Translations under genes and position numbers: made by a program
Assembly (NCBI GenBank): GCA_902767275.1
Contig: CACXGY010000037.1
Location: 1-33,022, forward strand
Length of the DNA: 33,022 nt
Direction of reading: 5' to 3'
From: an uncultured bacterium
GTDB taxonomy: Bacteria; Cyanobacteriota; Vampirovibrionia; Gastranaerophilales; Gastranaerophilaceae
In this document: positions 12,355-24,639 of the stretch, piece after piece
Layout of the letters: the number at the start of each line of letters is the position of its first letter
Numbering within the stretch: position 1 is the first letter of the stretch
The notes under the pieces: generated by a model
Seen by the model: only the letters and a program-made list of their open reading frames with translations
Database searches by the model: none
What the model was told of the DNA's origin: nothing

Positions 12355-13425
12355 TTAAAGTTCTATTATTTCTTTCTTTTTATCAGGTAATCTTTCGAGA
12401 GCCTCATCTTTGCATACCCTTAGATTTTCACAAAGAATACCGTTGATATAATAAGGGATTTCTTTCCCTTCAACAGGTATACCCTTTTCAGTCAAAATAG
12501 CCTCTTTTCTTGAATTAAAAAAAGAAACAAATTCTTTATCTGTATGTCTCGATGTTAAATTTGCCACATTTGAATATATATGATTATCTTCTTTTCTAAA
12601 AGTAACTGTTTCTCCTATATAGATACTGTTTCCCTTTGATTTATTAAACAAACCTTTTTTTGGATACCCAAACCCTATAGGTACAATGTTTACTTCCGGC
12701 ATTTTATCCGTGAGTTTATTAACAATTTCTCCTGTTCCGAGTGCAAATTTGTTCTTTAAAGGCATATTTTTCCATATTGCATTTTTACCCTCAGGAAAAA
12801 TGAATATATTACTCTCCCCACGAATAAATTCTCTGACTAAAGATAAAAATTGAACAGCATTTTTTCTTGAATCAGGGGAATTTAAACTAGCATCAATCGG
12901 AACAGCACCCATTTTTTCAAAAATTTGCTTATTTTGTTCGTCCATAGAAAGAATAATATCTTCATTCAGAATAATTCTGGGACGAGGACAACTATGTGCT
13001 TGTCCTGTCTTAACATATTCCTCCGAAAGCAAAGTAGTAAAGAATGCCAACATTTGAGGATCTTGAGTTTGCCTGTCATGATTCATAATAAAAATATGAG
13101 GTTTTCCGGATTTTGCAATCTTTTCAATCCTTTTATCCTCAAGATTTATTTCAAGTTCTTTCGGGGTAGATAACAATCTTCCGACCTGCGACATTATTCG
13201 CATATATTGCGGAGATTTACGCTCAACGGTTAACAAATCATTATATAATTGTTCATTATTTTGTTTTTGAAAATAATCACTGAACGTATTAACAACTTTC
13301 CGAGCGCAGAATTCTATTTTTCTGAAATGTTTTTCAGCATTAGAAGATAAACCGCCCCTAAATGTTGGTTGAAAAGTTGATGGATGTTGTTGATTGTAAT
13401 AGTTGTTTTTAATAGGTGTTATCAT
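12355..13425 (-). CDS. PlsC-like acyltransferase with variant HX5D
   Basis: 356 residues. The acyltransferase core (about 108-275) shows the PlsC/lysophosphatidate acyltransferase blocks in order: FIMNHDRQTQDP (113-123), GAVPIDAS (173-180), IFIFPEGKNAIW (207-218) and IVPIGFGYP (247-255). These proteins transfer acyl groups to glycerolipid acceptors at the membrane. The catalytic block has five residues between H116 and D122 instead of the usual four, so activity or geometry may differ. The N-terminus contains PTFRGG (20-25), the signature shared with other lineage-type proteins here. No membrane helix is obvious. It is last in a run after 13429-13821, three bases downstream, and no good ribosome-binding site is seen, suggesting coupling. 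Confidence 0.72.
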   Translation of the reverse strand: MITPIKNNYYNQQHPSTFQPTFRGGLSSNAEKHFRKIEFCARKVVNTFSDYFQKQNNEQLYNDLLTVERKSPQYMRIMSQVGRLLSTPKELEINLEDKRIEKIAKSGKPHIFIMNHDRQTQDPQMLAFFTTLLSEEYVKTGQAHSCPRPRIILNEDIILSMDEQNKQIFEKMGAVPIDASLNSPDSRKNAVQFLSLVREFIRGESNIFIFPEGKNAIWKNMPLKNKFALGTGEIVNKLTDKMPEVNIVPIGFGYPKKGLFNKSKGNSIYIGETVTFRKEDNHIYSNVANLTSRHTDKEFVSFFNSRKEAILTEKGIPVEGKEIPYYINGILCENLRVCKDEALERLPDKKKEIIEL

Positions 13426-13428
13426 ATA

Positions 13429-13821
13429 TTAATTTGGTGTTTTAGTATTAATTTTTACTTTCCCCATATTGTGAAAGAAGTTACCGACAGAACTGAAAAA
13501 TGTTCCGATGACACTCGGATGATTATTAACAGTAGCAACAGTAGCAGGAGTTAACTCCGGTGCAGCACTTTGCATTATAGCAGGTACAATTCCTGATGAA
13601 TTTATACCGGATGCTTGTGCGGAAAATGCTGTTGCTGCAACATCAGATGTAGTACCGATTGTATGAACTGCACTAAACCCTGAACCGGTTGAAGTTGCAC
13701 TACCAAGAGTTGAAGATCCGATAGAAACTTCAGGAGTTAATAAATCTCTATAGACAGGAGAAAGTTTTTTCATTTTTACTCTTGCACGAAAAGATGTGTT
13801 ATTAACCGGTTGTATACTCAT
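13429..13821 (-). CDS. Ser/Ala/Thr-rich small protein with TSFRAR
   Basis: 130 residues, not recognised. MSIQPVNNTSFRARVKMKK carries the short N-terminal F-R-A-R signature; the rest is low-complexity Ser/Thr/Ala/Gly (about 33-95) followed by a hydrophobic-aromatic segment, VIGTFFSSVGNFFHNMGK. There is no signal peptide. AGGAG lies 7 bases before the ATG. It sits between a 68-residue protein and the PlsC-like gene in the same direction with short gaps, so the three probably share a transcript. Low complexity suggests a structural or adhesive role, but nothing supports a specific function. Confidence 0.6.
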   Translation of the reverse strand: MSIQPVNNTSFRARVKMKKLSPVYRDLLTPEVSIGSSTLGSATSTGSGFSAVHTIGTTSDVAATAFSAQASGINSSGIVPAIMQSAAPELTPATVATVNNHPSVIGTFFSSVGNFFHNMGKVKINTKTPN

Positions 13822-14131: not shown

Positions 14132-14527
14132 TTAATCCTTTCCAAGAGCGGCTTTTAATCTTGCTTTTGCTCTTGCAAGAGCGGCTTCTGCACGCTTAGC
14201 ATCAATTTCTGCTTTGCTTTCTGAAAGTCTTGCTTCTGCACGTTCTTTTGCGGATTTTGCTCTGGTTACATCGATATCATTTCCATCTTCAGCCAAGTCC
14301 GTAAGAATTGTCGCCACATTATCTTTAAATTGAAACACTCCGCCCATTGTTGTAAAAGTACGTGTAGTATTATCCTGAACAACTTTTGTTATTCCAATGT
14401 CAAGAGCCGTCATTACGGGAACGTGGTCTTTTAATATTCCAAACTCTCCGTCTACACCACGTGTGTATATCTCATTTACATCCTCATCAAAAACTACTTT
14501 ATCATGAGTTATTATTTTTAAATGCAT
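14132..14527 (-). CDS. atpC: ATP synthase epsilon subunit
   Basis: 131 residues. The N-terminal beta-sandwich (1-85) shows FDEDVNEIYTRGVDGEFGIL and HVPVMTALDIG, the family signature, and the C-terminal part is a two-helix, Ala/Glu/Arg-rich hairpin (90-131). Epsilon sits in the F1 central stalk, couples rotation and can inhibit ATP hydrolysis. AAAGGA precedes the ATG by about 5 bases. It follows atpD by 19 bases, and the genes for a, b, c, delta, alpha and gamma are absent, reproducing the separate beta-epsilon unit of cyanobacteria and plastids (named atpE there). Confidence 0.95.
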   Translation of the reverse strand: MHLKIITHDKVVFDEDVNEIYTRGVDGEFGILKDHVPVMTALDIGITKVVQDNTTRTFTTMGGVFQFKDNVATILTDLAEDGNDIDVTRAKSAKERAEARLSESKAEIDAKRAEAALARAKARLKAALGKD

Positions 14528-14546
14528 ATAATCCTTTCAGAATTGA

Positions 14547-15977
<1,431 letters not shown>

Positions 15978-16052: not shown

Positions 16053-16913
16053 TTAATGTCTAATATGCTCATAATCGTGATAATTCTCCGGAGTACTGTA
16101 TTGTGTTGAACGTGACATTGTAAAACCGCCTTCTACATTAGTAATTATACGACGTGTTCCTTCGGGGAAATTTAAAATTGGTTTATTACGATAACCCATT
16201 AGCACCGGTTTTATTCTTGATACAGCCAAATCATTGAACATAGGTGTCGTACACCAAACTTTTACATTGGACATATTACCATATTTATCAACAGTAAAGG
16301 TAAACTTAAAAGTTGTACCCAGAGGAGCACTGATTTTCGTGTCCATCATAACCTGATTTTGAAGTCGGCTTCTCCAACGATTCCATGCAATAATTTCTTC
16401 TTGTTCCGTCAAAATAGGTTTCTCTTTATGAACAATCGGAGTTTGTTCACTCATTTTAATTTGTTTTGTTTGAGGGACTGATTGTTGTTTAGATGTTTTT
16501 TGCTTTTGCGGAACAGCATTTTGTACGGTTGTATTATTTTGAGATTTTTGAGTATTTGATTTTGAAACCTGTTGAGGCTTTGAAACTTGCTGCCGTTGAA
16601 CATTCTGAGATTTCACAGGTTGTCTTACCGATTGCACAGGTTTGTTTGAATATTGATTATTATTGGTTACAAGTTTTTGTTGTTCAATATTATATCCGGA
16701 AGAAACAATCGGCTTATTTGCGGTTTGTACGGGTTTAACCTCCATATTTGCATCGGATGGTTGTAATTGTGCAGGCGGAAGTATAACCTGAGCAAATTCA
16801 TATTCTGAATCCGTTATAATAGCCTGCTTATGCATTTCAGGTTTAAAAACAATAATAAAGAGGCTTATTAATGCTAATGAAACAAGATATATAATACTCT
16901 TTATATTCAACAT
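16053..16913 (-). CDS. TonB/TolA-like envelope protein
   Basis: 286 residues. One N-terminal membrane segment (about 5-23) is followed by a long Gln/Pro/Ser/Lys-rich, probably disordered linker (45-160) and a compact C-terminal domain (about 176-265) with WNRWRSRLQNQV, FKFTFTVDKYGNMSNVKVW and a final beta segment. This is the layout of TonB/TolA-type proteins: an inner-membrane anchor, a periplasm-spanning linker and a small alpha/beta domain that contacts outer partners. AGAGGCG precedes the ATG by about 5 bases. It is the last gene of the envelope cluster, 19 bases after the FHA-membrane gene. ExbB/ExbD-type motor genes are not visible here. Function is inferred from architecture and weak C-terminal resemblance. 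Confidence 0.65.
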   Translation of the reverse strand: MLNIKSIIYLVSLALISLFIIVFKPEMHKQAIITDSEYEFAQVILPPAQLQPSDANMEVKPVQTANKPIVSSGYNIEQQKLVTNNNQYSNKPVQSVRQPVKSQNVQRQQVSKPQQVSKSNTQKSQNNTTVQNAVPQKQKTSKQQSVPQTKQIKMSEQTPIVHKEKPILTEQEEIIAWNRWRSRLQNQVMMDTKISAPLGTTFKFTFTVDKYGNMSNVKVWCTTPMFNDLAVSRIKPVLMGYRNKPILNFPEGTRRIITNVEGGFTMSRSTQYSTPENYHDYEHIRH

Positions 16914-16932
16914 AATTCGCCTCTAAATATTA

Positions 16933-18450
16933 TTAATCTCTGTCAACCCTTGCAATTAGTTCATCACAAGCATAAATATCAAACTTAGTTTGACTAAGCA
17001 TATATGTTTCAGCAATAAGCAACGCTGTAGGAACAAGTGCTGCAATAATACTTAAAAATATACCTTGTAAATCGCCGCCTATTTCACTAAAGAAATAAGA
17101 TGTATTCATAGTAAACTCTATCAAAATAATTGCACAACCAATCATAAGAGAACGATTTTTTTCACTGTCCAGTTTTCTAACACCTTGAATACCGTATATG
17201 TTCACACCGTGAGTAAGGAAATTGCTAAATCCGTCTTGTTTAATCTCGTTTGAACCTTGAATTTTTCTGATAGTAAAGAATGCGTTAACAAATGCGAAGA
17301 ACGCAAAAACAATCATAAATGTTGCCAACACAAGAAAAACAGGACTGAATCTCAAGCCTGAAATACGAACCCATCCTGCTGCTTCAGGAAAGCACATAGC
17401 CAATGTATTTGATACACCATATGCAAGGAACGGTGCTGTAATAAATCCTAATACCGTTTCGCCCACAGATTTCAGTTGAAGATTGAATAATTTATCCTTT
17501 ATATTTGATATTTTAGTATTACTTATTGAATTGATATATTTATCAATCCATTGTCTGTATTCATTGAGTACAACTTCAAAATCTTCTCTGTATTCGTTTT
17601 GATCAAGATTATATGTCATTTGATGACCCGTAAATTTAAAATATCCGCAGGACATAGAACAAATGACTGCTAATCCTACAAAGAATAAAGATACAAGAAT
17701 TGAAAAAATAACGTTTATATTAACATAATATAGCAAATTTATTATATAAATTCCTGTAAAGAAAAATGAAGTTGATGCTAACATAAAATGCTGAGCGGAT
17801 ACAGATGTCGGTGTAGTTTTAACTTTATTTTGAAAATACAAATATACACCTTGTTTTAAAATCAAGCATAAGCCGTACACAACAACCGTAAAAGCAAGCA
17901 ATATTTTAATATTAGTAGGAAGATGAATAAAATTCTTTGTTTCTTCGATCTCTAAACCTGTCAAATAATTAGCGACCCCAAATGCGGTAACTAATGAAGT
18001 TAAGAATAAAGCAATATGTAAAAATATTGATGTTCTGTAATTAAGAGTTAATTTTGTTTTTAAATCATTTATAACAAAACCTGTTTTTTTAACTACACTA
18101 ACTCTTGCTTTTTCAAGTTCTGCCTTTTTTTGTTCAAGAACACCTACTTCATAATTTTGTTGTTCTGTAATTTTTATAGAAATAAACTCGTCATTTATAC
18201 CTGACATTAACTTACAAACCTTATCAATATCAATCTTTTGAGCCAACGGTTTACCCTTGAATAATATATTTTGATTGTTAAATGTGTTTAAAACGGTACA
18301 TTTATTAGCCTGACCGTTGCATTGCAAAGTAAGCATATATTCGGAACCCATATCGACAACAAAATCACAACTCGGATTTGAGCCGATATTAATTATTTCT
18401 TTATCCGTAAAAGTTTTTTCATTGTTTTTAGAAACTAAAGTTATAATCAT
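16933..18450 (-). CDS. FHA-like domain, polytopic membrane protein
   Basis: 505 residues from the second of two adjacent ATGs (18450), which is better spaced from AAAGGA than the ATG at 18453. Residues 1-97 resemble an FHA domain (INIGSNPSCDFVVD is the iG-S-x-D-type core), a phosphothreonine-binding module. A Lys/Glu linker follows, then roughly eight hydrophobic segments between about 143 and 490. Two are in the 183-208 and 331-357 regions, and further ones fall at 370-396 and near the C-terminus. The membrane part matches no transporter family that I recognise. It lies between the vWA gene (25-28 bases upstream) and the TonB-like gene. FHA plus vWA suggests phospho-signalling or assembly control; no kinase or phosphatase is adjacent. 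Confidence 0.7.
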   Translation of the reverse strand: MIITLVSKNNEKTFTDKEIINIGSNPSCDFVVDMGSEYMLTLQCNGQANKCTVLNTFNNQNILFKGKPLAQKIDIDKVCKLMSGINDEFISIKITEQQNYEVGVLEQKKAELEKARVSVVKKTGFVINDLKTKLTLNYRTSIFLHIALFLTSLVTAFGVANYLTGLEIEETKNFIHLPTNIKILLAFTVVVYGLCLILKQGVYLYFQNKVKTTPTSVSAQHFMLASTSFFFTGIYIINLLYYVNINVIFSILVSLFFVGLAVICSMSCGYFKFTGHQMTYNLDQNEYREDFEVVLNEYRQWIDKYINSISNTKISNIKDKLFNLQLKSVGETVLGFITAPFLAYGVSNTLAMCFPEAAGWVRISGLRFSPVFLVLATFMIVFAFFAFVNAFFTIRKIQGSNEIKQDGFSNFLTHGVNIYGIQGVRKLDSEKNRSLMIGCAIILIEFTMNTSYFFSEIGGDLQGIFLSIIAALVPTALLIAETYMLSQTKFDIYACDELIARVDRD

Positions 18451-18478
18451 CATAATCCTTTCATAAAATTATTTATCA

Positions 18479-19147
18479 TTAACGACCGATGGCATTTATA
18501 AATCTTCTAAGGGCCTTATCAACATTTTGTTCAGGAGCGAGAATCAATTTATTTTCGCCTAAAATAGCACCCAGTTTTTCTTTAACCATATCCAATTTTT
18601 GCGGATGAGCATATAAAAACATCATTGCAATATCAGGAGCATATTTTTTTACATTTTTAATGTTTTGAGGGAACGTATTCCAATCAATTTGTTTTTCAGT
18701 AGCACCTTCATTTTCCAAGTCGCCCATAACAACAACTGCAGGAACATAACCATCTTTCTTCATAGTTAAAGCATAAGACAAAGCCTTTTTAACCCCATCC
18801 CCATAAGCAGTTCCTAAATCCTCCGGAGCATATTGTGTAAATGCTTCCATAGATTTTGTAATCCCGCCGGTGTTTTGAGGAGACCCTTCATAAATTATGT
18901 ATGCATCTTGAGATACTTTTATAATCTTTATTTGATCTTCCGGATCAAGTTGAGCACAAATTTGTTTAAGAAATCTTTTTTGTTCGGTTAATTTTGCCTG
19001 ATTAGAAGCAGATGAGTCGACAACAAACATAACTGCCGCCGGATGAAAATCGTCTACTTTAATATTCTTTAATCCTGCCCATATAAGTTTGATACCTATA
19101 CACACAAGTAAAATCACTATTCCTAAAGTTATTAATCTTTTATTCAT
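18479..19147 (-). CDS. membrane-anchored vWA domain protein
   Basis: 222 residues. An N-terminal membrane segment (about 6-24) leads into a von Willebrand factor A domain (about 35-218). The metal-ion-dependent adhesion site looks complete: DSSAS at 44-48 (DxSxS), T113 in GTAYGDG and D143 in GDLENEG. Such domains bind protein partners through Mg2+ and often work in envelope assembly machines. AGAGGA precedes the ATG by about 6 bases. It is third of five genes in a minus-strand cluster, with an FHA-membrane protein and a TonB-like protein after it. It is close to a bare vWA domain, so its role is probably ligand binding by complex formation. Confidence 0.8.
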   Translation of the reverse strand: MNKRLITLGIVILLVCIGIKLIWAGLKNIKVDDFHPAAVMFVVDSSASNQAKLTEQKRFLKQICAQLDPEDQIKIIKVSQDAYIIYEGSPQNTGGITKSMEAFTQYAPEDLGTAYGDGVKKALSYALTMKKDGYVPAVVVMGDLENEGATEKQIDWNTFPQNIKNVKKYAPDIAMMFLYAHPQKLDMVKEKLGAILGENKLILAPEQNVDKALRRFINAIGR

Positions 19148-19196
19148 TATTTCCTCTGTATTTTGTCTTTACCTACAAATTAATAATAACATAATA

Positions 19197-20003
19197 TTAA
19201 TTATACGGCACAACTTCAATCGGTTGAACCAACTTTACAATGATAGCAGTACCGGCAGGAACTTCAGCACCTTCTCCTTTGTGAGCGACGGCAGAAACCA
19301 TACCGCCGGCAGCACCAACAGCAGAACCTATTGCTAAGCCACCTACTATATCACCGCCGGAAATAAGTGAATACAATGCCCCTGTTACAACACCGCCTAT
19401 TGCACCTACAAGAACATTTCCTGCTATTTTTAATGCACGTTTATCCTTTATTTCAATATAAACTTTATTAGACGTTAATCTGATTCTATCTCCGTTAGGA
19501 GTTAATATTTCATCAAAAGTCATTGCTAATTTACCGTTTGCATAAGCATATCCTGCTTTTTTCACATCTGTGGCTTTGCCGTATAGTACACTTCCTTGAG
19601 GAGCAACCAGAACGCCGTTATAGTACCAGTCATCACTTAAAACTGCTGCAATTATATCATTGTTTGCAAGACTCTCCGAACTTATAGAAGATTGTAAAAC
19701 CGCCTCAAAAGACTCCCCCTGCGGAACGACAAAAACGGTTCCGTGAACAGTTTTTGGCTGTGGCTCATATATTTTTTGCGGTTGATAAGAGGGTTTTTCT
19801 TTTGATTTTTGTTTTTCCAATCTTGGATCAGTTTTTACGGATGTCTTTGCATCCTCATTTCTTATACGTTCTTTTTCAAGTATTTCTTGTCTGTCAAATT
19901 CTGCCTGTGCTTCATCACTAAAATCATACACATCAGCATACGCAGGAATTATTTGTATACCAAGTAAAAAAACGGCTAAAATCAGACAAATTACTTTTTT
20001 CAA
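19197..20003 (-). CDS. exported protein, VirB10-like outline, glycine zipper
   Basis: 268 residues from a TTG at 20003. GGGAG lies 7 bases upstream, and this start avoids a 38-base overlap with the upstream gene. The first residues form a good signal peptide (LKKVICLILAVFLLGIQII, cleavage near AYA-D). A charged, Pro-rich linker follows, then a beta-rich domain with FVVPQGESFEAVL and LVAPQGSVLYGKATDV. Next come GKLAMTFDEILTPNGDRI and a Gly/Ala-rich segment (IGGVVTGALYSLISGGDIVG) before AGTAIIVKLVQPIEVV. Order and spacing resemble the beta-barrel part of VirB10/TrbI secretion proteins, with a glycine zipper that could insert in a membrane. The resemblance is by eye. It belongs to the 16053-20682 envelope cluster. 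Confidence 0.6.
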   Translation of the reverse strand: MKKVICLILAVFLLGIQIIPAYADVYDFSDEAQAEFDRQEILEKERIRNEDAKTSVKTDPRLEKQKSKEKPSYQPQKIYEPQPKTVHGTVFVVPQGESFEAVLQSSISSESLANNDIIAAVLSDDWYYNGVLVAPQGSVLYGKATDVKKAGYAYANGKLAMTFDEILTPNGDRIRLTSNKVYIEIKDKRALKIAGNVLVGAIGGVVTGALYSLISGGDIVGGLAIGSAVGAAGGMVSAVAHKGEGAEVPAGTAIIVKLVQPIEVVPYN

Positions 20004-20022
20004 CGTATCTCTCCCGTGAAAA

Positions 20023-20682
20023 CTACTTGAACAGTACTTGTATTTTTTCGTTAGTTTCAAACGTTACATATCCGACAACAGCCTTTTTCTTTGCACTTGT
20101 CGTTTTTAAATATACCGTAAAATGACCGAATATTCCGGTAGTGTCACTATTTGCGGTTCTCTTAAGATTAATTATATCAATATAGTCTATTTTATTCAAG
20201 TCATAATCCTTCTTTCTATCATTGACAAGAAGGGTTCCGTTTTTGTCCATTCTAACGAATCTGATACCTGCTTTTTTTAGTTCATCCGGACTTAATTTAG
20301 AATAATCTCCGTCAGAATTCAAACTCAACAAAGATTGAAACCTGTTTTCTTTAGGATCATCAATTCCTAATAAATCCTTTTCTGACCAATTTAAGTCACA
20401 TCTGTCCTTTACTAAAACATAATTTTGTCCGTCAATTTGAACAACATAAGGATCAAATAACAATGCAGGAGTGATAACCGCAGCAGCGGCTGTAAGACCT
20501 AAAAAGGTTTTTGCAACATTAAAAGGTTGTTTTGACGGAATAGAAACATATTCCGTTCCGCCTTTTATACGCACATTGTTGCTTAAATCATTTAGTGCAG
20601 TTCCTTTATATGGGAACACATTTTGTGCCATTGCTGTTGTTGAACACAAGAATAAACATAATACCGCTAAAAATTTTTTCAT
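20023..20682 (-). CDS. exported protein of unknown function
   Basis: 219 residues. A signal peptide is clear (MKKFLAVLCLFLCSTTAMA, cleavage before QN). A short Ala-rich hydrophobic stretch follows at about 60-75. Residues near 120-145 include NSDGDYSKLSPDEL, an EF-hand-like loop of doubtful completeness, and a beta-rich C-terminal third ends the protein. AAGGAC precedes the ATG by about 7 bases. It is the first gene of the minus-strand cluster that continues with the VirB10-like, vWA, FHA and TonB-like genes; the next start (TTG at 20003) lies 19 bases past its stop. No family recognised. Confidence 0.7.
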   Translation of the reverse strand: MKKFLAVLCLFLCSTTAMAQNVFPYKGTALNDLSNNVRIKGGTEYVSIPSKQPFNVAKTFLGLTAAAAVITPALLFDPYVVQIDGQNYVLVKDRCDLNWSEKDLLGIDDPKENRFQSLLSLNSDGDYSKLSPDELKKAGIRFVRMDKNGTLLVNDRKKDYDLNKIDYIDIINLKRTANSDTTGIFGHFTVYLKTTSAKKKAVVGYVTFETNEKIQVLFK

Positions 20683-20789: not shown

Positions 20790-20822
20790 AAACAAAATAG
20801 AAAGGGGCTTTTCGCCCCTTTC
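20790..20822 (-). terminator. intrinsic terminator of flavodoxin gene
   Basis: Minus-strand stem GAAAGGGGC (20814-20822) with GCCCCTTTC (20800-20808), 5-base loop, followed by the T-rich TATTTTGTTTTATT. It lies about 120 bases past the flavodoxin stop. On the plus strand no T run follows, so it is directional. Confidence 0.85.
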
Positions 20823-20939
20823 CATTCTACAAAATAATGAACTTAATACAGTATTTTTAACTGTTATTAATATAGTTCCCATAATTGTTAAATAAATAAC
20901 CCGACTTGTGCAAAAAGACATGACTTAATATTTATCTGA

Positions 20940-22434: not shown

Positions 22435-23031
22435 ATGGGTTTACTGGGTGAAAAACAGAAAACAAAAATCTTTTCAGACACCGGTCTTGATGATATTGAA
22501 TTAGATTGTTTCATAAAAAAATGTACCTCCGACAAAATATTGTTGGGTATTTCTCCCGTGCAAAGAGATGATTTTTCTGATTTAGGAATAGGCTTTGACA
22601 TAGATGTAAAAGTTTTTACCCCGAACGGAATTGCGATTTTTAAATCAAAAGTTACTAAAATAAATACACAAAAAGAAATAGAAATCACATACAACGAATC
22701 AGAAGTAAAAGTTGAAAATACAAGACAAAACCCACGTTATGAAACAAATTGTCCTATTACAATATTCAGACCGTTGTTAGGGAATATTGACTCACATTTA
22801 TTGGATATAAGTGTAAGAGGATTAAGATTTTATTCTGAAATACCGCTAAAAGAAAATTCAGAATTTGAAATAATGTTGTATTTATCGGATACTGTTGGTA
22901 AAATATTACTTACGGGAAAGGTTCTTGATAAAACAGGGTTGCCTGACGGTGTTCATCGTATGATAATAGAAAAAATATCATATAATGACAGACAAAAGTT
23001 AATAGATTATTGCATGTCACTTGCAAACTAA
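22435..23031 (+). CDS. PilZ domain c-di-GMP-binding protein
   Basis: 198 residues. The C-terminal half carries the PilZ signature: RQNPR at 97-101 (RxxxR) and DISVRG at 124-129 (D-x-S-x-x-G), the two c-di-GMP-binding elements. The N-terminal half (1-92) is a beta-rich domain like the YcgR-type N-terminal domain of flagellar-brake proteins. It is therefore a probable c-di-GMP receptor that relays the second messenger to a partner, perhaps the adjacent TPR protein. No good ribosome-binding site precedes the ATG. Diguanylate cyclase or flagellar genes are not seen nearby. The TPR gene follows after 15 bases. Confidence 0.85.
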   Translation: MGLLGEKQKTKIFSDTGLDDIELDCFIKKCTSDKILLGISPVQRDDFSDLGIGFDIDVKVFTPNGIAIFKSKVTKINTQKEIEITYNESEVKVENTRQNPRYETNCPITIFRPLLGNIDSHLLDISVRGLRFYSEIPLKENSEFEIMLYLSDTVGKILLTGKVLDKTGLPDGVHRMIIEKISYNDRQKLIDYCMSLAN

Positions 23032-23046
23032 AGAATGGAAGAAATA

Positions 23047-24639
23047 ATGGCTAATATGTTAGAAAACGATTCATCAGACGAAATGAATAAAAAACAAGAC
23101 AAGGTAAAAAAAGCAATTGAACGATGTCAATTAGATTTGCAAAAAGAACCAAATAATGCAAAATTGCACATACGATTAGGAGATTTATACCTTGAATGGC
23201 ACCTTGATATATTCAATTCATGTCAGTATATAGATGAGGCTATAACAGAATATCAATGTGCATTAGAAACAGCCATTGATTCGTATGAAATCTATTACAA
23301 GATAGGTAAAGCCCAATTTTATAAAGGGGATTTAGATAAGGCAATAAACTATCTTAATATGGCATTAGAGCAAAACAAAGAATATGCGGATGCATATTAT
23401 GTATTAGCAGAAACATATACCAGAAAGGCATATTTCTTTGAAGCAATTCAAGCGGCAAAACAAGCAGTAAAATATAAAAGATTCAGAAACTCAAGAGCAC
23501 ACTTTTTGCTTCATAAATTATATCAAGCATCCGCATTTAAAAATTTCAAGGTAGGATGCCAATCAAAATTTGAACATCTATTGGCTATTCTAACCTTCCC
23601 GTTTGATAAAATGGCTATTTTAACAGCACTCAGAACAATATCATATTTACAATTCATGCCGGTATTATTTTTAACATTTTATTATATTCAATTAAGAAGA
23701 CTGGATGTTGCAGTAGATTTGTATATAAAAACAATCGATAAAGCCCCAGGATTTGTTCCGTTGTATTGTTTGTTGGGCGATGCATACCTTGCAATGGGGC
23801 ATTTTGAAGATGCTATAACCGAATACAAAATGGCAATTTGGTTGGATAGTTTAAACATTCCTGCATACAGACATCTTTCACAGGCTTATGAAGAACAAGG
23901 AGATTATGACAGAGCAATAGAAACATATCAAAAACTTATTTCTATTATGCCAACAGTACCTGATTTTCATTCAAATCTTGCAAATTTATACTATATTAAA
24001 GGAGAGTTTAAACTTGCGGTTGCACAATACCAAACAGCGATAACATTAAATCCAAATAAACGTTGGACAAGTATAATTGCACAAACTCTCGGATTTGTGT
24101 ATCAAGAAAATCAAAACGATTTAGATGCAGCAATATGTGCATATCAAAACGCATACACTATGACTCCTGAAGATATTGATATTTACATAAATTTAGGTAG
24201 TGCGTTTTATGATAAAGAAGATTTTGATAATGCTTTATCAGTATACAGAAAAGCGTTAGAACTAGACCCTACGAATGCAAAAATTCATTGTAATTTAGCA
24301 TTCCTTCACTGGGGTAAAGGGAACACGAACGAAGCAATAAAAGAATACGAACTTTCAATAAAATATGATGAGAATTATGATATCGCATATAACAATTTAG
24401 GAGTTATATATCTTGATGATTTAGGCAGAGTACAAAAAGCAATAGAATTATTCAAGAAATCAGCAGAATGCAACCCTAATTATGCTTTGGCACATTTTAA
24501 CCTTGCAAGAGCAGTAACAATTGTAGGCGATAAAATTGAAGCAGCAAAATTATATCAAATTGCACAAGATATTAACAAAGTTACCAATGAAATTGATCCG
24601 CAAGATATTGTAGATAAAATAAACGGATTATTCTCATAA
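23047..24639 (+). CDS. large TPR-repeat protein
   Basis: 530 residues from the ATG at 23047, preceded by GGAAG; an in-frame ATG at 23035 has no site. About nine to ten tetratricopeptide repeats are visible: three or so in the first third, then an insertion near 150-205 with a hydrophobic stretch (LQFMPVLFLTFYYIQL), then a regular block to the C-terminus. Typical repeat cores are LGDAYLAMGHFEDAI, LSQAYEEQGDYDRAI, LGSAFYDKEDFDNAL and LAFLHWGKGNTNEAI. TPR arrays are protein-binding scaffolds. The gene follows PilZ by 15 bases and precedes an ACT protein by 18, suggesting a shared transcript. Confidence 0.85.
   Translation: MANMLENDSSDEMNKKQDKVKKAIERCQLDLQKEPNNAKLHIRLGDLYLEWHLDIFNSCQYIDEAITEYQCALETAIDSYEIYYKIGKAQFYKGDLDKAINYLNMALEQNKEYADAYYVLAETYTRKAYFFEAIQAAKQAVKYKRFRNSRAHFLLHKLYQASAFKNFKVGCQSKFEHLLAILTFPFDKMAILTALRTISYLQFMPVLFLTFYYIQLRRLDVAVDLYIKTIDKAPGFVPLYCLLGDAYLAMGHFEDAITEYKMAIWLDSLNIPAYRHLSQAYEEQGDYDRAIETYQKLISIMPTVPDFHSNLANLYYIKGEFKLAVAQYQTAITLNPNKRWTSIIAQTLGFVYQENQNDLDAAICAYQNAYTMTPEDIDIYINLGSAFYDKEDFDNALSVYRKALELDPTNAKIHCNLAFLHWGKGNTNEAIKEYELSIKYDENYDIAYNNLGVIYLDDLGRVQKAIELFKKSAECNPNYALAHFNLARAVTIVGDKIEAAKLYQIAQDINKVTNEIDPQDIVDKINGLFS

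Follow-up and report, generated by a model that had tools for sequence, protein, structure and literature searches.

TolA and TonB are transducers of ExbBD-type proton motors. The Tol-Pal and Ton systems combine a TM segment, a disordered linker and a C-terminal domain of the TolA-III/TonB type with an exported partner encoded alongside and a trans-envelope topology, and the locus described here resembles them in each of these respects. In Myxococcus Agl-Glt (GltG, GltJ, CglB) FHA, TonB-type and vWA modules occur together, as they do here, and a zinc-ribbon module is also present in GltJ. A third point of likeness is an inner-membrane-tethered periplasmic vWA protein at a putative force-transducing locus; the vWA force-transducer families proposed in Mol Biol Evol in 2025 (PMC12204202) adjoin tolQ-like genes and carry either a transpore Asp or SHLS docking residues. 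Tol/Ton, the vWA force transducers and Agl-Glt are the closest systems, and the cluster misses a defining feature of each. A literature search of partial coverage found no description of this gene combination.

The Gastranaerophilales are a non-photosynthetic cyanobacterial order of gut bacteria. A diderm envelope has been described for the lineage (PMC3787301). The cluster was found in a 33,022-nucleotide stretch of DNA from this order, referred to below as the window. The reading preferred here, held with about even confidence, is that the product of the cluster is a trans-envelope assembly of derived Tol/Ton-like type, acting as a tether or force transducer, which belongs to one Gastranaerophilales family, has an 8-TM hub and works without ExbB/ExbD.

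Gene layout and conservation of the cluster

A preliminary description of the window had proposed a cluster of five closely spaced envelope genes with ribosome sites of their own. The ORF listing agreed with it for all five frames, which lie on the minus strand and encode an exported protein of 219 aa (20023..20682; signal peptide by inspection), a VirB10/TrbI-like glycine-zipper exported protein of 268 aa (19197..20003), a vWA protein of 222 aa (18479..19147), an FHA-8TM protein of 506 aa (16933..18453) and a TolA/TonB-like protein of 286 aa (16053..16913). The intergenic gaps were 19, 25-28, 49 and 19 bases, and a purine-rich ribosome-site-like stretch was present ahead of every gene. The 16933 gene has a tandem ATG ATG at 18453/18450, whilst the start of the 19197 gene is most plausibly the TTG at 20003, which is preceded by GGGAGAG; its longest frame reaches 20060. 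The upstream border of the cluster is a strong hairpin resembling an intrinsic terminator (20792..20830, minus strand; 17 pairs, then a T-rich tail), which belongs to the flavodoxin gene upstream and sets the cluster apart from it. Downstream, atpD is 90 bases from the end of the last cluster gene. The atpD-atpC pair (14132-15962) directly follows the cluster in the window, and in another genome (G003, locus L022) an ATP synthase subunit a-like gene occupies this place instead. A functional tie to atpD-atpC as a property of the unit was rejected, different neighbours being found in other relatives.

The core order TrbI-like, vWA, FHA-8TM, TolA-like was found again in approximately 100 loci of one Gastranaerophilales family, indicating that the arrangement is not due to chance. 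A vWA search gave matches in 19/38 genomes, every one of the window's family, and the FHA-8TM profile matched 128 of the 386 genomes of the phylum, all again in that family. A scan of 84,980 species yielded 80 loci with labels that were mostly Gastranaerophilales, Melainabacteria or uncultured bacterium. Spacing was counted over loci L068-L147 plus the window with a criterion of 60 nt; within this distance were 53/57 TrbI-vWA pairs, 72/76 vWA-FHA pairs, 77/82 FHA-TolA-like pairs and 40/59 pairs of the TolA-like gene with a zinc-ribbon gene. The latter, encoding a zinc-ribbon/TM/TonB_2 protein, comes next after the TolA-like gene in most loci and in the window's genome is present on contig C99. 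The comparison with relatives that had been suggested thus revealed a conserved order, although of the five genes proposed as a cluster only four form the conserved core. The 20023..20682 gene is not part of this unit: its product had no Pfam match, and full-length relatives at the same place were found solely in 6/8 genus members searched, with weak partial matches elsewhere, consistent with a lineage-specific gene. A conserved neighbourhood alone is no proof of one complex. At one locus (L134, 3438-10599) the cluster was doubled with its two copies side by side, and many other genomes had a second FHA-8TM gene at another place. The source genome of the window is 1.8 Mb in size and 88.5% complete, so that absences noted below for this genome alone are soft.

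The FHA-8TM and vWA proteins

The preliminary call of an FHA-like domain was supported by the predicted fold. In an AlphaFold2 model generated from 59 sequences (mean pLDDT 83), residues 1-96 of the FHA-8TM protein matched 6ccd with Z 12.6 and rmsd 2.3 over 93 aligned residues; a coiled-coil and eight hydrophobic helices, predicted by both hydropathy and the model, complete the protein. No Pfam match was obtained by sequence and a PDB sequence-profile search with the alignment returned nothing, so the FHA call rests on the modelled fold. Three acidic residues in or beside the membrane helices (E331, E445 and E481) were invariant in 59/59 sequences, and a segment between TM5 and TM6 (residues 338-372, around TAPFLAYGVSNTLAMCFPEAAGWVRISGLRFSP) was strictly conserved.

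Eight TM helices, invariant acids and the conserved segment are features that might be expected if this protein moved a lipid, glycan or ion across the membrane, as a transporter or channel, with the periplasmic proteins carrying its product to the outer membrane. However, no transporter family in Pfam or NCBIfam matched above chance and a nucleotide-binding domain is absent. ABC exporters and transporters retrieved by Foldseek for the TM part, within the full model, superposed at rmsd 15 A or more and were rejected. The preliminary description had allowed that the 16933 or 19197 protein might prove to belong to an ordinary transporter or secretion family; no ordinary transporter match was found for either, and we regard a transporter role as rather unlikely. 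The same acids could instead make the protein an ion-driven motor of a new type, standing in for ExbB/ExbD and setting the TolA-like and zinc-ribbon/TonB_2 proteins in motion so that they act on the outer membrane; we likewise attach a low probability to this proposal.

The vWA call was borne out by a PF13519 match above the cut-off (E 1.9e-9), and the complete MIDAS reported previously (D44, S46, S48, T113 and D143) was invariant in the first 19 aligned sequences. A simple MIDAS pattern was failed by 13 of 92 vWA sequences, several of which had altered MIDAS residues, and at 7 loci the vWA gene was absent while the remaining core genes persisted. This inner-membrane-anchored, periplasmic protein is therefore best seen as accessory. 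The SxxxH docking motif was found in 0/62 vWA proteins, and the vWA helix had no conserved intramembrane Asp, the only acid (1/62) being due to a mis-set boundary. The window vWA protein thereby differs from the published force transducers (PMC12204202) in having neither SHLS nor a transpore Asp, in the lack of tolQ from its cluster and in adjoining an 8-TM FHA protein.

These data also bear on the suggestion that the locus encodes an apparatus whose state is read by the FHA domain, through phosphothreonine, and by the vWA domain, through an extracytoplasmic ligand. Phosphothreonine-reading FHA domains conserve an Arg (GR) and bind through the residues S-R-x-H. At FHA position 24, the site of the phosphothreonine Arg, S, T, N or A was present in 59/59 sequences and Arg in none, and SRxH was absent from positions 36-42. 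The PF00069 protein kinase had no match in the window's genome and exceeded the cut-off in just 3/22 relatives. The FHA fold indicated by the model and a MIDAS that is complete in the window and many relatives would be compatible with signalling, but loss of the Arg, the missing kinase and the loss or degradation of vWA in some relatives argue against it, and this state-reading part of the preliminary description was not upheld. We consider such a signalling apparatus very unlikely.

A focal-adhesion or gliding-type machine resembling Agl-Glt, with a motor linked to the surface by FHA, zinc-finger, TonB-like and vWA components, would account for the similar module set. GltG consists of FHA plus TonB (PMC3169522), and CglB is a vWA adhesin (PMC12204202, PMC12288465). 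The zinc-ribbon protein gave a weak NCBIfam match to GltJ (E 2e-3), which was set aside because it falls in a proline-rich linker. In contrast to Agl-Glt, the FHA domain of the cluster is located on a polytopic protein and is unfused to TonB, the vWA protein is dispensable and anchored in the inner membrane rather than being an outer-membrane lipoprotein, and neither the AglRQS motor nor other glt genes are present in the cluster. A machine of this kind appears highly improbable.

TolA-type proteins and the ordinary Ton system

The TonB/TolA-like protein had been named as such from its sequence, and this too is consistent with the predicted fold. The AlphaFold2 model consists of a single N-terminal TM (helix 4-23), a low-pLDDT linker up to residue 168 and a C-terminal domain (170-267); residues 169-267 matched TolA-III (1lr0) with Z 8.2 and rmsd 2.7 over 95 aligned residues, and the best 18 VIA rows were all TolA or TonB proteins, which also headed the Foldseek matches. 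By sequence the protein matched no family, and a PDB sequence-profile search with its alignment returned nothing. Descent from the local TonB was unsupported, there being no profile match to ordinary TonB, and the likeness is one of fold. A weak profile relation (probability 73) was detected with the zinc-ribbon/TonB_2 protein. The TonB_2 domain of the latter scored 31.9 bits against a cut-off of 22 in the window's genome and was present in 9/10 members, and a CxxC-x10-CxC pattern was present in 59/59.

An ExbB-ExbD-ExbD set was present in each family genome searched, with a single set elsewhere in the window's genome. The TolA-like, zinc-ribbon and vWA proteins might therefore use this set and so extend the ordinary Ton/Tol motor as an accessory branch, and for other phyla a coupling of inner-membrane-tethered vWA and TolA proteins to motors of the TolQ/TolR type has been proposed (PMC12204202). 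All three anchored proteins, however, lack the SxxxH docking motif. It was present in 7/7 ExbBD-linked TonB proteins; in TolA-like proteins it occurred in 2/55, both as SPKMH outside the hydrophobic stretch, and in zinc-ribbon proteins in 0/10. The missing intramembrane Asp of the vWA helix and the absence of ExbB/ExbD genes adjoining the cluster at the loci examined also speak against an accessory branch, which we consider possible but improbable.

The VirB10-like call on the 19197 protein was justified in part. The similarity is real (PF03743, E 7.8e-6) but under the family cut-off (26.3 bits against 35). A match to NCBIfam T4SS_VirB10 had E 1.1e-3, the NF038091 score of 18.6 against a curated 220 places the protein outside that family, and a PDB sequence-profile search with the TrbI-like alignment gave just weak matches to CagY and ComB10 (E 0.15). 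The weak Pfam/NCBIfam similarity covers the first part of the VirB10/TrbI C-terminal domain, and the glycine-zipper hairpin comes next, probably at the position where VirB10 bears its outer-membrane antennae. Unlike VirB10/TrbI, the window protein has a signal peptide and no inner-membrane anchor, and it belongs to an unusual expansion of VirB10/TrbI-like glycine-zipper exported proteins, of which most genomes of the family encode 7-11, and is thereby less special than it first appeared. No T4SS gene was seen to recur beside the cluster in the window and in relatives, whose neighbours were scanned against families in part.

Exported proteins of this type are also associated with the ordinary Ton system. 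In the window's genome, as in other families of the order, TonB and TrbI-like exported proteins precede ExbB-ExbD-ExbD, and a VirB10/TrbI-like partner of TonB-ExbBD seems to be a trait of the lineage. In the own genome the genes stand in the row TrbI-like, TrbI-like, TonB, ExbB, ExbD, ExbD (locus L156, 726-5034, on contig C92, outside the window), and a similar order was observed in other families of Gastranaerophilales. By hhalign (100%, 1.3e-48) the TrbI-like protein of the window and one adjoining TonB are paralogues. Against the profile of the ExbBD-linked TrbI the window protein and its orthologues gave values of 1e-40 to 1e-28 and other family members about 1e-18, which by sequence comparison puts the window protein in the branch nearest to the TonB-linked one. 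A YDFSDEAQ motif was found directly behind its signal peptide. The strict pattern Y-x-F-[SDE]-[DE] occurred in 49/67 TrbI-like proteins, against 0.2 expected in shuffles, and in 0/8 of the ExbBD-linked version. A search of the window's genome for the plug domain of TonB-dependent receptors was negative.

A candidate bridge between the two membranes

Of the two alternatives offered in the preliminary description, a trans-envelope assembly is thus the one that fits the parts encoded. Its support comes from three proteins that are anchored in the inner membrane and have domains in the periplasm, one of them with a predicted TolA/TonB-type fold, and from an exported VirB10-like glycine-zipper protein with a paralogue adjoining TonB-ExbB-ExbD. 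The cluster differs from Tol-Pal and Ton in having no TolQ/ExbB, TolR/ExbD or SxxxH, in the missing receptor plug of its genome and in the presence of the FHA-8TM and the optional vWA protein in place of motor genes. Given cluster transducers free of the docking motif, the TrbI paralogy and the lack of a receptor plug, the cluster looks like a Tol/Ton-derived bridge without an ExbBD motor.

In such an assembly the core would comprise the TrbI-like protein, presumably on the outer-membrane side, the FHA-8TM protein as an inner-membrane hub, the TolA-like protein and the zinc-ribbon/TM/TonB_2 protein, with the periplasmic vWA protein as an accessory. The TolA-type domains would span the periplasm and make contact with the TrbI-like protein; its conserved Y-x-F-[SDE]-[DE] peptide may be bound by strand addition, by analogy with TolA-III, which binds the N-terminus of TolB. 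The FHA and zinc-ribbon domains would be cytoplasmic protein-docking modules that do not read phosphothreonine. Such an assembly may do without ExbB/ExbD in tying the two membranes together or pulling the outer one towards the inner, either passively or driven by the 8-TM protein. It would then either show that TolA-type proteins lacking the docking motif can be passive inter-membrane tethers, or hint at another energy source. The locus also provides a defined gene set for envelope study in common, barely cultured gut bacteria.

Several further features were observed nearby or at related loci. Small TM proteins of about 60-100 aa are often encoded before the TrbI-like gene (L037, L112, L113 and others); they carry PxMHKPF and a K-x-N-x-DG-S tail, and the PxMHK stretch after the helix is common to the TolA-like protein. 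Short N-terminal stretches (for example QPTFRGG, NNTSFRA and NLSFKGL) were seen repeatedly near the start of unrelated proteins (12355-13425 and 13429-13821 in the window; 5843-8251 in L029) and are perhaps a lineage-specific tag. In the window, 22435-24639 encodes a PilZ-domain protein followed 3 bases on by a TPR-repeat protein, a pair possibly linked to c-di-GMP.
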